56,643 nucleotides of DNA, taken from positions 1 to 56,643 of the forward strand of contig NZ_ATHO01000146.1 in the NCBI RefSeq assembly GCF_000445065.1, given 5' to 3'. Within the stretch, counting starts at the first letter, position 1. Each line of letters begins with the position of its first letter. A program made the position numbers and the translations under genes. The stretch comes from Sphingobium quisquiliarum P25 (GTDB lineage Bacteria; Pseudomonadota; Alphaproteobacteria; Sphingomonadales; Sphingomonadaceae). Below the pieces are notes generated by a model, which worked only from the letters and a program-made list of their open reading frames with translations, searched no databases and was not told where the DNA came from. Of this stretch, positions 29,108 to 34,952 are shown one piece after another.

Positions 29108-29536
29108 TTAAAGCCCCTCCCTTTCAAGGGAGGGGTCGGGGGAGGGCATGTCAACTCCCCGGTTTTCGTCCAGAGGCGGCTCACATTCCCCCCCTCCGTT
29201 CGTTTCGAGCGAAGTCGAGAAACCAGTCCCCGGCGATTCCGCCGAAGCCGGACGCTCCCGCGGCGGCCGGGCTAGAAACGACAGCAAAGGCCAGTTGCCG
29301 GAAATCATCGCTTCCTTCTTCGCGCGCGACCAGCCGCCAACGATCCGCTCAGCTTCCAGCGCTTCGATCCTCGAAGAAAATGCCTCGCTCCACATCAGCG
29401 TCACGGGCAGCCGCCTCCGCGTGAACTGGCTGCCTTGCCCCGATTGATGCTGGCCGATCCGATGCTCCAGATCGTCCGTGTGGCCGGTATAATAGCGCCC
29501 GTCGGAGCATTTCAGCATGTAGGTCCAGAACGCCAT
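29108..29536 (-). CDS. GIY-YIG domain protein with repeat-derived C-terminal tail
   Basis: A 142-residue protein. Residues 1-85 are a GIY-YIG domain of the short UPF0213 type: FWTYMLKCSDGRYYTGHTDD (the GIY/YIG pair appears as TYML and YYTG), then HQSGQGSQFTRRRLPVTLMW and the EALEAERIVGGWSRAKKEAMI segment with the metal-binding glutamate. Such proteins are probable nucleases of unknown role. From about residue 100 the sequence is repeat DNA read as protein: GFSTSLETNGG from the 29-bp element and DPSLEREGL from the palindrome before dnaG. The tail is therefore probably not part of the fold. The ATG at 29536 is chosen; a longer frame upstream is also repeat-derived. Confidence 0.82.
   Translation of the reverse strand: MAFWTYMLKCSDGRYYTGHTDDLEHRIGQHQSGQGSQFTRRRLPVTLMWSEAFSSRIEALEAERIVGGWSRAKKEAMISGNWPLLSFLARPPRERPASAESPGTGFSTSLETNGGGECEPPLDENRGVDMPSPDPSLEREGL
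29114..29135 (-). promoter_or_regulatory. Palindrome carrying the dnaG ribosome binding site
   Basis: A perfect 10-bp inverted repeat, CCCCTCCCTT and AAGGGAGGGG with two bases between. On the minus strand the second arm supplies GGAGGGG eight bases ahead of the dnaG GTG, so hairpin formation would hide it. It also encodes the last residues of the GIY-YIG protein. Confidence 0.6.
29196..29224. repeat. 29-bp CCGTTCGTTTCGAGCG repeat inside the GIY-YIG gene
   Basis: Identical over all 29 bases to the copy inside carA (30971-30999). Read on the minus strand it gives GFSTSLETNG in the frame of the GIY-YIG protein (residues ~105-114). Confidence 0.85.
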
Positions 29537-29584
29537 CCATACACTATGCGCAAAGCTTCGCCCATGTCGAGCGGTGACCCACCT

Positions 29585-29708
29585 CCGTTCGTTTCGAGCG
29601 CTCCTCCATCCGTTCGTTTCGAGCGCTCCTCCATCCGTTCGTTTCGAGCGAAGTCGAGAAACGGAAAGCGCGCGCATATCGTTTCTCGACTACGCTCGAA
29701 ACGAACGG
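29585..29708. repeat. Tandem and inverted cluster of the CCGTTCGTTTCGAGCG element
   Basis: Two perfect 25-base tandem units (29585-29609 and 29610-29634, each CCGTTCGTTTCGAGCG plus CTCCTCCAT) lead into a nearly full copy at 29635-29662. An 18-base spacer follows, then an inverted copy at 29681-29708 that matches in 27 of 28 positions. It fills the yqeY to GIY-YIG gap. The inverted pair has the layout of a REPIN. Confidence 0.9.
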
Positions 29709-29763
29709 AGGTGGGAAAGAGCAAGAAAGGAGGGCAGGGGAACCCAAAACTCCCCCAATCGCC

Positions 29764-30216: not shown

Positions 30217-30370
30217 GGCGACACGAATCCTGTGCTACGGGAAAAGACCAGATATAATGCCAAAAGAGATTTTTAACAGCGGTTGACCGCAGGGCTTCAC
30301 AGGCATAGGTGACCGGCCGTTTAACCCGCTGAAGACGGGTTCCCGCAAAAGCATGAAGGACACCGATACC

Positions 30371-31564
30371 ATGGCTGATGCCAAGACCCTCACCGTGCCC
30401 AAAGGAGCGACAGGGGTATTGGTTTTCGCCGATGGCAGCGCGGTGTTTGGCCGCGGTTTCGGCGCGGTTGGCGATGCGGTGGGCGAACTCTGCTTCAACA
30501 CCGCCATGACCGGCTATCAGGAAGTGATGACCGACCCCAGCTATGCCGGGCAGATCGTCACCTTCACCTTTCCCCATATTGGCAATGTCGGCACCAACCT
30601 TGACGACGTGGAGGCGGACAATCCCTTCGCCCTCGGCTGCGTCGTTCGCCAGGACGTCACCGAGCCAAGCAACTTCCGCAATGTCGAGCCTTTCGACCAG
30701 TGGATGAAGGAAAACGGCCGCATCGGCCTCTCCGGCGTCGACACGCGCGCGCTCACCCGCATGATCCGGTTGAAGGGCGCGCCCAATGTCGTGATCGCCC
30801 ACGATCCTGAGGGCCGTTTCGATATCGCCGCCCTCGCCGACAAAGCGGCCAACTGGCCCGGCCTTGAAGGCATGGACCTCGCCATCGAAGTGACCGGCAA
30901 GGAAAGCCGCCTCTGGAAAGACGGCGTCTGGAAGCTTGGCGATGGCTATGGCCTCGATGAAACTGAAACCCCGTTCGTTTCGAGCGAAGTCGAGAAACCA
31001 CGCCCCCACGTCGTCGCGATCGACTATGGCGCGAAGAACAACATCTTCCGCAACCTCGTAAAGGCGGGCGCGCGCGTCACCGTACTCCCCGCCACCGCCA
31101 CCTATGATCAGGTGATGGAGCAGAAGCCGGACGGCCTCTTCCTCTCCAACGGCCCCGGCGACCCTGCCGCGACCGGCGAATATGCCGTGCCGGTCATCAG
31201 GCAGGCGCTGGACGCGGACCTGCCCGTCTTTGGCATCTGCCTCGGCCACCAGATGCTCGCCCTCGCGGCAGGTGCCAAGACGGTGAAGATGCACCAGGGC
31301 CATCGCGGCGCCAATCACCCGGTCAAGCGGCTGGAGGATGGCCTTGTCGAAATCACCTCGATGAACCACGGCTTCGCTGTGGATAGCGACACGCTCCCCG
31401 CCAACGTGAAGCCGACCCATGTGTCGCTCTTTGACGGTAGCAACTGCGGGATAGAACTTACTGATAAGAAAGCGTTTTCTGTTCAGTACCACCCGGAAGC
31501 CTCACCCGGCCCGCAGGATAGCTTCTACCTTTTCAAGCGCTTCGTCGACAGCCTCTCGAAGTGA
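30371..31564 (+). CDS. carA: Carbamoyl-phosphate synthase small subunit, with in-frame repeat insertion
   Basis: A 397-residue glutaminase subunit that feeds ammonia to CarB for arginine and pyrimidine synthesis. The N-terminal domain (residues ~8-180) is followed by the class I glutamine amidotransferase domain, with the nucleophile in FGICLGHQ (near 291) and the His/Glu pair in YHPEASPGP. Between them, residues 201-210 (PFVSSEVEKP) are encoded by an exact copy of the 29-bp repeat found in nearby intergenic DNA. The insertion lies in the interdomain linker just before HVVAIDYGAK, where length varies in the family, so the enzyme is probably active. The ATG at 30371 follows AAGGA; an in-frame ATG at 30353 is possible. 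Confidence 0.95.
   Translation: MADAKTLTVPKGATGVLVFADGSAVFGRGFGAVGDAVGELCFNTAMTGYQEVMTDPSYAGQIVTFTFPHIGNVGTNLDDVEADNPFALGCVVRQDVTEPSNFRNVEPFDQWMKENGRIGLSGVDTRALTRMIRLKGAPNVVIAHDPEGRFDIAALADKAANWPGLEGMDLAIEVTGKESRLWKDGVWKLGDGYGLDETETPFVSSEVEKPRPHVVAIDYGAKNNIFRNLVKAGARVTVLPATATYDQVMEQKPDGLFLSNGPGDPAATGEYAVPVIRQALDADLPVFGICLGHQMLALAAGAKTVKMHQGHRGANHPVKRLEDGLVEITSMNHGFAVDSDTLPANVKPTHVSLFDGSNCGIELTDKKAFSVQYHPEASPGPQDSFYLFKRFVDSLSK
30971..30999. repeat. 29-bp CCGTTCGTTTCGAGCG repeat inserted in frame in carA
   Basis: Starts exactly at a codon boundary (base 601 of the gene from 30371) and is identical to 29196-29224. It reads PFVSSEVEK plus the first two bases of the next proline codon, without a stop. 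Confidence 0.92.
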
Positions 31565-31616: not shown

Positions 31617-34600
31617 ATGCCCAAACGCACCGACATCTCCTCCATCCTCATCATCGGCGCCGGCCCGATCATCATCGGCCAGGCGTGCGAGTTCGACTAT
31701 TCGGGCACCCAGGCGGTGAAGGCGCTCAAGGAAGAGGGCTATCGCATCATTCTCGTGAATTCCAACCCGGCCACCATCATGACCGACCCGGAATTTGCCG
31801 ACGCCACCTATGTCGAACCGATCACGCCCGAAATCGTGGCGAAGATCATCGAAAAGGAACGGCCTGACGCGGTGCTGCCCACCATGGGCGGCCAGACGGC
31901 GCTCAACACCGCGCTCGCCCTGTTCAATGACGGCACGCTGGAGAAGTTCGGGGTCAAGATGATCGGCGCCGACGCCGAAGCCATCGACAAGGCTGAGGAT
32001 CGCCTGAAGTTCCGCGATGCGATGGACAAGATCGGTCTTGAGTCAGCTCGCTCGCGCATCGCCCACACGATGGAAGAAGCGCTGGAGGCTCTGGAGTTCA
32101 CCGGCTTGCCCTCCATCATCCGCCCCAGTTTCACGCTCGGCGGCACCGGCGGCGGCGTCGCCTATAACAAGGAAGAATTCAAGCGGATCGTCGCCGAAGG
32201 GCTCGACGCTTCCCCCACGACCGAAGTGCTGATCGAGGAATCGCTGCTCGGCTGGAAAGAATATGAGATGGAGGTCGTGCGCGATCGCAACGACAACGCC
32301 ATCATCATCTGCTCGATCGAAAATGTCGATCCGATGGGCGTCCACACCGGCGACTCCATCACCGTCGCGCCCGCGCTGACGCTGACCGACAAGGAATATC
32401 AGATCATGCGCAACGCGAGCATCGCGGTGCTGCGTGAGATCGGCGTGGAAACGGGCGGCTCCAATGTCCAGTTCGCGGTCAATCCGAAGGACGGCCGCCT
32501 GATCGTGATCGAGATGAACCCGCGCGTCAGCCGCTCCTCGGCGCTGGCGTCGAAGGCGACCGGCTTCCCGATCGCCAAGGTCGCGGCGAAACTCGCCGTC
32601 GGCTACACGCTGGACGAGATAGAGAACGACATCACGGGTGCGACTCCGGCCAGCTTCGAACCGACCATCGACTATGTCGTGACGAAGATCCCCCGTTTCG
32701 CCTTTGAAAAGTTCAAGGGCTCCGAACCGTTGCTCGGCACCGCCATGAAATCGGTGGGCGAGGTGATGGCGATCGGCCGCAACATCCATGAATCCATGCA
32801 GAAGGCGCTGCGTGGCCTAGAAACGGGCCTGTGCGGCTTCAACAACGTCACCCATCTGGAAGGCGCGTCGCGGGATGATATCGTTGCGGCGCTGTCCCAG
32901 CCGACGCCCGACCGGCTGCTCGTCGCCGCACAGGCGCTGCGCGAAGGGCTGACCGTCTCGGAAATCCATAACATCGCCAAGTTCGACCCCTGGTTCCTGG
33001 AGCGGATCAAGGAGATTGTGGACGCCGAAGCGGAGGTGCTGGAAAACGGCCTGCCGCAGGATGCCGATGGCATGCGGCGGCTCAAGTCCATGGGCTTTTC
33101 GGATCAGCGCCTTGCCTGGCTGGCGCTCAAGTCCGCCAACCTGCGCGGCATGGAACGGGGCATCGCGCGCGGTTCCGGCCTGATCCACGAAGCGGTCAAG
33201 GCAATGACCGGCGGCGTCACCGAAGCCGAAGTGCGCGCGCTGCGCCACAAGCTGGGCGTACGCCCCGTCTTCAAGCGCATCGATACTTGCGCGGCCGAGT
33301 TCGAGGCGAAGACGCCCTATATGTATTCGACCTATGAAGCCCCGCTCTTTGGCGAGGCGGAGAATGAGGCGCAGCCCAGCGACCGGAAAAAGGTCGTCAT
33401 CCTGGGCGGCGGACCCAACCGCATCGGGCAGGGAATCGAGTTCGACTATTGCTGCGTCCACGCCTGCTTCGCGCTCAGCGAGGCGGGCTATGAGACCATC
33501 ATGGTCAACTGTAACCCGGAGACCGTGTCCACCGACTATGACACGTCCGACCGCCTCTATTTCGAGCCGCTGACCGCAGAGGACGTGCTGGAAATCCTGA
33601 GCGTCGAAATGTCGAACGGCACGCTTGCGGGCGTCATCGTCCAGTTTGGCGGCCAGACTCCGCTCAAGCTGGCGCAGGCGCTGGAGGATGCGGGCATCCC
33701 GATCCTTGGCACTTCGCCCGACGCCATCGACCTTGCCGAAGACCGCGAACGGTTTGCCGCGCTGATCGACAAGCTCAAGCTCAAGCAGCCCGCCAACGGC
33801 ATCGCCCGCAGCCGGGAGGAAGCGATCGCCGTCGCCAACCGGATCGGCTATCCCGTCCTCATGCGCCCATCCTATGTCCTGGGCGGCCGCGCCATGGAGA
33901 TCGTCGATGGTCAGGCCCAACTGGAGGAATATATCGCCACCGCCGTTCAGGTGTCGGGCGACTCCCCCGTCCTGATCGACCAATATTTGCGCGACGCGAC
34001 CGAGGTGGACGTGGACGCGCTCTGCGATGGCGACGATGTGGTGGTGGCTGGCGTGCTCCAGCATATTGAGGAAGCGGGCGTTCACTCCGGCGACTCCGCC
34101 TGCTCGCTGCCGCCCTACAGCCTGTCGGACGAGGTGATCGCGGAAATTGAGCGTCAGGCCGATGTCCTTGCCCGTGCGCTCTCCGTGCGCGGCCTCATGA
34201 ACATCCAGTTCGCGGTCAAGGATGGAACGGTCTACCTCATCGAGGTCAATCCGCGCGCCAGCCGCACTGTGCCCTTCGTCGCCAAGGCGATCGGCACGCC
34301 GATCGCCAAAATCGCCAGCCGGGTCATGGCGGGCGAGAAGCTGAAAGACCTGCCGAAGATCGACCGCAACGCGATCAGCCATATCGCGGTCAAGGAAGCC
34401 GTCTTTCCCTTCGCGCGCTTCCCCGGCGTCGACCCGGTCCTCTCGCCAGAAATGAAAAGCACCGGCGAAGTCATGGGCATCGACAGCGATTTCGCGACCG
34501 CCTTCGCCAAGTCGCAGCTCGGCGGCGGCACCATGCTGCCGACCAGCGGCACGGTGTTCGTGTCGGTCAAGGATAGCGACAAGCCCGTCATCCTGCCCGC

Positions 34601-34952
34601 GGTGCAGAAGATGGCGGCGCTCGGCTTCACCATCATCGCGACCGGCGGCACCGCCCGCTATCTGGAAGAACAGGGCATCGAAGTGCAGCCGGTGAACAAA
34701 GTGGCTGAAGGCCGCCCGCATATCGTGGACAAGATCACCGATGGCGACGTCGACCTGATCTTCAACACGACGGAAGGGTGGCAGTCGCTCAAGGACAGCA
34801 AGGCGATCCGCACGAGCGCGCTGCGCGCCAAGGTGGCGAGCTTCACCACGGCGGCCGCCAGCCTTGCTGCGGCGGACGCGATCGAGGCGCTGCGCGGCCA
34901 TGCCCTTGAAGTGCGTTCCCTACAGTCCTATTATCCAAAGCCGCAAGCCTGA
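31617..34952 (+). CDS. carB: Carbamoyl-phosphate synthase large subunit
   Basis: A 1111-residue CarB. It has two homologous ATP-grasp halves (the first starting [20 protein letters not shown], the second [20 protein letters not shown]), an oligomerisation region between them, and a C-terminal MGS-like allosteric domain ([20 protein letters not shown]). It forms carbamoyl phosphate from bicarbonate, two ATP and CarA-derived ammonia. It follows carA by 52 bases on the same strand, so they form one operon. The length is normal and, unlike carA, no repeat copy is visible inside it. Confidence 0.97.

Follow-up and report, generated by a model that had tools for sequence, protein, structure and literature searches.

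Palindromic repeats in the reading frame of carA and a putative recurrent landing site for them in the CarA linker of Sphingomonadales

The class A unit of carA and its neighbourhood

The window, by which we mean the whole 56,643-nucleotide stretch of Sphingobium quisquiliarum P25 DNA that was analysed, carries carA and carB together with several copies of a short palindromic repeat, referred to as class A. The features concerned are as follows.

30353..31564, plus strand: carA, encoding the small chain of carbamoyl-phosphate synthase (403 aa)
30956..31006, plus strand: CarA interdomain linker with the insert (residues 202-218; AlphaFold2 model)
30971..30999, plus strand: in-frame class A unit encoding PFVSSEVEKP (residues 207-216), without counterpart in the insert-free CarA of relatives
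31617..34952, plus strand: carB, the control without inserts
29108..29677, minus strand: ORF for a GIY-YIG nuclease-like protein (PF01541 at ORF residues 50-121), its C-terminal tail consisting partly of repeats
29114..29147, no strand assigned: tailed palindrome that resembles classes B and C in being of the CCCCTCCC...GGGAGGGG kind, identified by eye
29196..29224, plus strand: class A unit identical to that in carA, running antisense to the GIY-YIG ORF within its C-terminal tail
29584..29633, plus strand: two tandem 25-base copies with only the first (head) half of the class A unit
29635..29662, plus strand: head-to-head doublet, first arm, located upstream of YqeY where the GIY-YIG ORF starts
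29681..29708, minus strand: second arm of this doublet

The earlier note on this DNA had described a 29-base element within carA as identical to the stretch at 29196-29224 and nearly identical to those at 29635-29662 and 29681-29708. Direct comparison bore out both statements, the copy at 29681-29708, on the minus strand, having one mismatch in the 27-base core. Its placement at a codon boundary also held, as codon 207 of the carA ORF starts at 30971 and the stretch is translated into PFVSSEVEKP. The source had been called an intergenic repeat; it is indeed a dispersed repeat, but 'intergenic' does not plainly apply to the copy at 29196-29224, which lies antisense in the tail of the GIY-YIG ORF. 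The CarA linker is located between the small-chain and glutaminase domains, and in the AlphaFold2 model its pLDDT is below 50 at residues 203-213, flanked by strands at 198-201 and 219-224. A dispersed repeat lies inside an ORF, keeps the frame and is missing from homologues, and as judged from sequence CarA of this strain would count as a REP-tagged protein. A hairpin was looked for in the single CarA unit, and this unit folded no better than shuffles (z 0.12).

Allowing up to 3 mismatches, we counted 4 copies of the 27-base core in the window, whereas none of 100 dinucleotide shuffles contained one; the genome of 4.17 Mb has 42 copies, and the reversed pattern gave 0 matches. A degenerate class A pattern matched 32 of 61 genomes, which all belong to the genus of the window, and its control gave no match. 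Class A appears to be a REP-like mobile repeat, an imperfect palindrome CCGTTC-GTTTCGAG-CGAAGT-CGAGAAAC with a covarying stem. The first stem pair is G-C and the second T-A or C-G, mismatches occupy stem positions 6-7, and the loop is of 6 bases. Among the 42 units of this genome, pair 7-26 is TA in 31 and CG in 11, and pair 8-25 is TA in 35, GC in 5 and CG in 2, neither pair ever being broken; the tandem mismatch G.A/A.G is kept in 41 and 40 units. On inspection, the unit proved to be open in each of its six frames. Units often form inverted pairs, and head-to-head pairs recur throughout the genome, yet both dimer orders occur in CarA. Folded as single-stranded DNA, the doublet at 29627-29716 reached −38.8 kcal/mol (z −9.3).

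The tail of the GIY-YIG ORF consists in part of a class A unit, and its end is the CCCCTCCC palindrome. The two repeats may have extended this protein. Relatives of the palindrome kind at 29114..29147 occur in CarA linkers.

Inserts in the CarA linker of relatives

Alignment of CarA from relatives revealed a short linker at the insert site, including the nearest CarA sequences (L034 and L033), and insert-free relatives have about 8 residues between the conserved GY and RPHVV (for instance GLNEAGEE). Repeat-free short linkers in relatives and other inserts in other lineages altogether support insertion rather than ancestral presence, as the earlier note had supposed. The opposite view, that a PFVSSEVEK-like linker is ancestral in CarA and the dispersed repeats were derived from it or are alike by chance, has nothing found in its favour beyond the sequence identity itself; set against a 42-copy dispersed family with 0 reversed controls, insert-free near relatives and unrelated inserts at the same place further out, it is exceedingly improbable. 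One other genome (G027) has the insert and its flank DETET in common with this genome, and both carry class A units no more than 1600 bases upstream of a CarA landmark, which nine compared relatives do not. In a CarA tree built without the linker these two genomes are not sisters despite the common insert, so that recombination or losses must be added; the insert probably goes back to one event, with such changes later on.

CarA was present in 379 of 397 family genomes, and rows were inspected for 338 (150 + 28 + 80 + 80), with 41 left out. An inserted or long linker was observed in 48 of these 338 (24 with single-piece matches, 23 with two-piece matches, and this genome). Insert-free linkers are mostly 45-47 residues long between landmarks, against 56 in CarA of this genome and 63-78 in the 24 further single-piece matches. 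All 24 two-piece matches break between query residues 197 and 217, and a long linker was confirmed in 23 of them, 22 measuring 74-96 residues and one (G263) judged by eye. The remaining genome (G099) has ambiguous bases in its assembly; its carA region (L193) also shows a stretch duplicated around a class D repeat, at which the assembly seems to have a gap. When all loci are taken together, a linker of at least 55 residues is found in 62 of the 182 non-redundant CarA rows; the 182 rows are no random sample, since part of the stretches was chosen mainly for long matches.

Motifs of five palindromic classes were detected in 50 of the 62 long-linker rows and in 0 of 120 shorter rows:

class A: CGAGCGNAGTCGAG, 21 rows
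class B: CCCTCCCGCNNGCGGGAGGG, 15 rows
class C: CCCTCCCCTTCAGGGGAGGG or near, 7 rows
class D: CTGAGCNTGTCGAAG, 5 rows
class E: CGTC kind, 2 rows

The shuffle control gave 19 matches in 1240 shuffles (A 16, D 2, E 1). Two rows that failed the motif scan, L173 and L220, were assigned by eye to classes C and E, respectively. Two or more units are present in 45 of the 50 motif-bearing inserts, and the inverted arms exceed all 50 shuffles in most repeat-bearing inserts. Classes A and D have the head CCGTTCG in common, as B and C have CCCCTCCC...GGGAGGGG, so that the repeat groups unrelated to one another number at least three. Class B is likewise dispersed genome-wide, found in 18 of 20 genomes searched at up to 59 sites, with one match to the reversed control (G312). 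These observations point to the CarA interdomain linker as a recurrent landing site for repeats in Sphingomonadales.

In the motif scan, 12 of the 62 long linkers gave no motif of the five classes. Five rows of one Sphingobium group (L056, L057, L058, L068 and L169) share an insert ETVAAGYPA...PTPAP of constant length, in which neither a class motif nor an inverted repeat above shuffles was detected. L186 also has a long linker of no obvious class. For old inserts outside the five classes, pN/pS was 0.51 as compared with 0.05 in the flanks (5 sequences), a weak constraint as expected of a tolerated loop. Target-site duplication was considered as well, and none was seen by eye at the insert junctions examined.

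Reading frame, tree and other genes

Parsimony on a one-gene FastTree tree, in which gains, losses and replacements are counted together, gave 17 changes for class A, 13 for B, 7 for C, 5 for D, 3 for E and 6 for the label 'undetermined', with 48 for all states together. As 20 label shuffles gave 52-59 changes, the insert labels cluster weakly and are scattered almost as if at random. The tree counts therefore say that insertions were many, not how many. For these counts L135 and L162 were labelled 'undetermined' (the motif scan later gave class C and class A, respectively), and L076, L211 and L221, of 56-57 residues and among the 62 long rows, were labelled insert-free; L167 and L196 (short), identical rows with the same label, and L170, L186, L193 and L195 were left out.

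The class A inserts of CarA are read almost always in one frame, whichever the doublet order: 20 of 21 forward arms and all 18 reverse arms share it, and the sole exception is L162. The class A doublets of uvrA follow the same frame (3 of 3). In glyS both forward arms examined (2 of 2) stand in a frame other than that of CarA, and the MtaB-like inserts also use another frame. The near-fixed class A frame hints either at selection acting on the peptide or at an entry point that is fixed; simple tolerance fails to explain it unless basic peptides are selected against. The CarA inserts of class E, however, seem to be basic when judged by eye.

CarB, 2.8 times longer than CarA, served as the control; 136 of 139 genomes have it. 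Among the matches listed, 110 full-length rows span 3,306-3,351 bases (3,333 in this genome), with no net gain above about 10 residues. The listed split CarB pairs abut within about 9 bases, and no CarA-like insert was seen among the rows listed.

As judged from open frames and GC by codon position for the other copies, 6 of the 42 class A units in this genome are internal and in frame, and the only genes concerned are carA, uvrA, glyS and an MtaB-like radical SAM gene; a further unit lies in the GIY-YIG tail. Two are in uvrA (L030, C97), two in the MtaB-like gene (L024, C51) and one, by motif, in glyS (L232, C150), where a second, degenerate insert was recognized by eye. An excess of the element in coding regions, raised in the earlier note as bearing on the insertion, was not seen in this genome; its absence does not speak against insertion. 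Among the best 30 loci of the 59 genomes matching uvrA, 12 have a long linker (67-87 residues as against 57-61); these linkers hold several repeat kinds, and the motif scan was positive for 6 of the 12. A second hot spot in same-genus genomes is the segment that directly follows the UvrA interaction domain (L237-L248). For glyS, a motif is present in 8 of 26 ORFs read; in some of them it stands close to where the ORF begins (L272, L289), and some of the ORFs are truncated (L289, L293).

Known repeat systems and the origin of the CarA inserts

REPINs are dispersed inverted doublets of a short palindrome, and occur with RAYT transposases. Class A resembles them in forming inverted doublets of a short dispersed palindrome; the GTAG tag of GTAG REPs and REPINs is however lacking at either end of the window units. 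A search for RAYT (PF01797) gave 0 matches in this genome. PF01797 was matched in 19 of 61 genomes. Of the 12 genomes with at least 20 units, this one included, 4 have a match, in one case only a 30-residue fragment. RAYT was rejected as the mobiliser of class A, a PF01797 match being absent from this genome and from 7 of the other 11.

S. alaskensis and E. litoralis, two sphingomonads, are among the species with REPs inside genes. Di Nocera et al. (2013) describe CGTC and GTAG REPs inside genes, namely tRNA synthetase and truB genes of these two species and uvrA of others (PMC3733652). According to the same authors, REPs are mostly head-to-head dimers, the CGTC kind has no dedicated transposase, over half of the intragenic inserts are dimers or groups encoding 20-30 aa, and linkers and loops are proposed as neutral places for REPs (PMC3733652). 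The L190 class E insert agrees with the published CGTC REPs in its CGTC tag, its 8-bp stem starting with ATT, its 4-base loop and its CCA tail. In contrast, class A lacks the unpaired CGTC (or TGTC, CCTC) tag, the window copies having CCGTTC before the stem; CGTC REPs have a stem of 8-9 bp with A-T as the first two pairs and a loop of 4-5 bases, whereas the class A stem starts with G-C and its loop is of 6 bases. The tandem mismatch G.A/A.G further sets class A apart.

Rickettsia palindromic elements (RPEs) are reported to comprise ten families of about 150 bp (PMC10969869). They too are palindromic repeats standing in frame in unrelated metabolic genes, but by description they differ from the 27-30-base units, alone or in doublets, of Sphingomonadales. 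A literature search for palindromic repeats in sphingomonads, Alphaproteobacteria and carA gave nothing relevant to carA, and the terms 'carA' and 'carbamoyl' are absent from the main text of PMC3733652. The earlier note had regarded an in-frame sphingomonad REP in an essential enzyme as notable. In-frame REPs as such are already on record for sphingomonad proteins (PMC3733652), while their recurrence at one linker is unusual. A single instance in which different REPs occupy roughly one position has been published, in recB of two Xanthomonas species (PMC3733652); CarA has five classes in one linker over many lineages. Beyond recB, no repeated use of one linker by several classes was met in the literature searched. 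REP-tagged proteins are accordingly known already (PMC3733652; Rickettsia RPEs), and what is new is one linker repeatedly occupied by unrelated classes.

We consider that the disordered and tolerant CarA loop probably acts as a survival filter for repeat insertion that is largely unselective. A class A copy would have entered the carA linker in a lineage common to this genome and G027, of the same genus. Insertion would be largely unselective as to gene, and most insertions within genes would be lost with damage to the protein. The disordered CarA linker may tolerate roughly 10-60 extra residues, and insertions would survive there because of this tolerance, the linker recording whichever repeats were active in each lineage. 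A preference of the mobilising enzyme or enzymes for the carA linker DNA would fit the many strikes at the same short segment, the fixed frame of class A and the strikes at one linker in uvrA; but this reading appears unlikely in the face of at least three unrelated repeat groups at one site, a forward core position of class A that varies from base 94 to 193 from the GMDLA landmark, and junctions in which neither target duplication nor a shared motif was seen by eye.

Retention for function is another possibility, the RNA hairpin slowing ribosomes or tuning carA-carB, or the longer linker altering glutaminase coupling. The predominance of inserts with two or more units (45 of 50), the strong single-strand folding of the tested doublets, the site between two domains and the conserved class A frame are consistent with it. 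We regard it nevertheless as quite unlikely, since most inspected family genomes do without an insert, the single unit of this genome folds no better than shuffles (z 0.12), and L056-L058, L068 and L169 keep their length with no inverted repeat above shuffles. That the linker is a docking place, where a hairpin or peptide adjusts co-translational folding or CarA-CarB coupling and for which unrelated selfish repeats were convergently recruited dozens of times, we likewise hold to be improbable.

The CarA linker represents a replicated natural experiment on selfish repeats becoming protein: at a single site in an essential enzyme, repeats of at least three unrelated groups can be compared over many lineages that have inserts or lack them. 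How tolerance relates to the length, frame and age of an insert can be measured, and the inserts form a linker-scanning data set made by nature. For these bacteria, linker length in CarA, UvrA and GlyS is a poor family trait.
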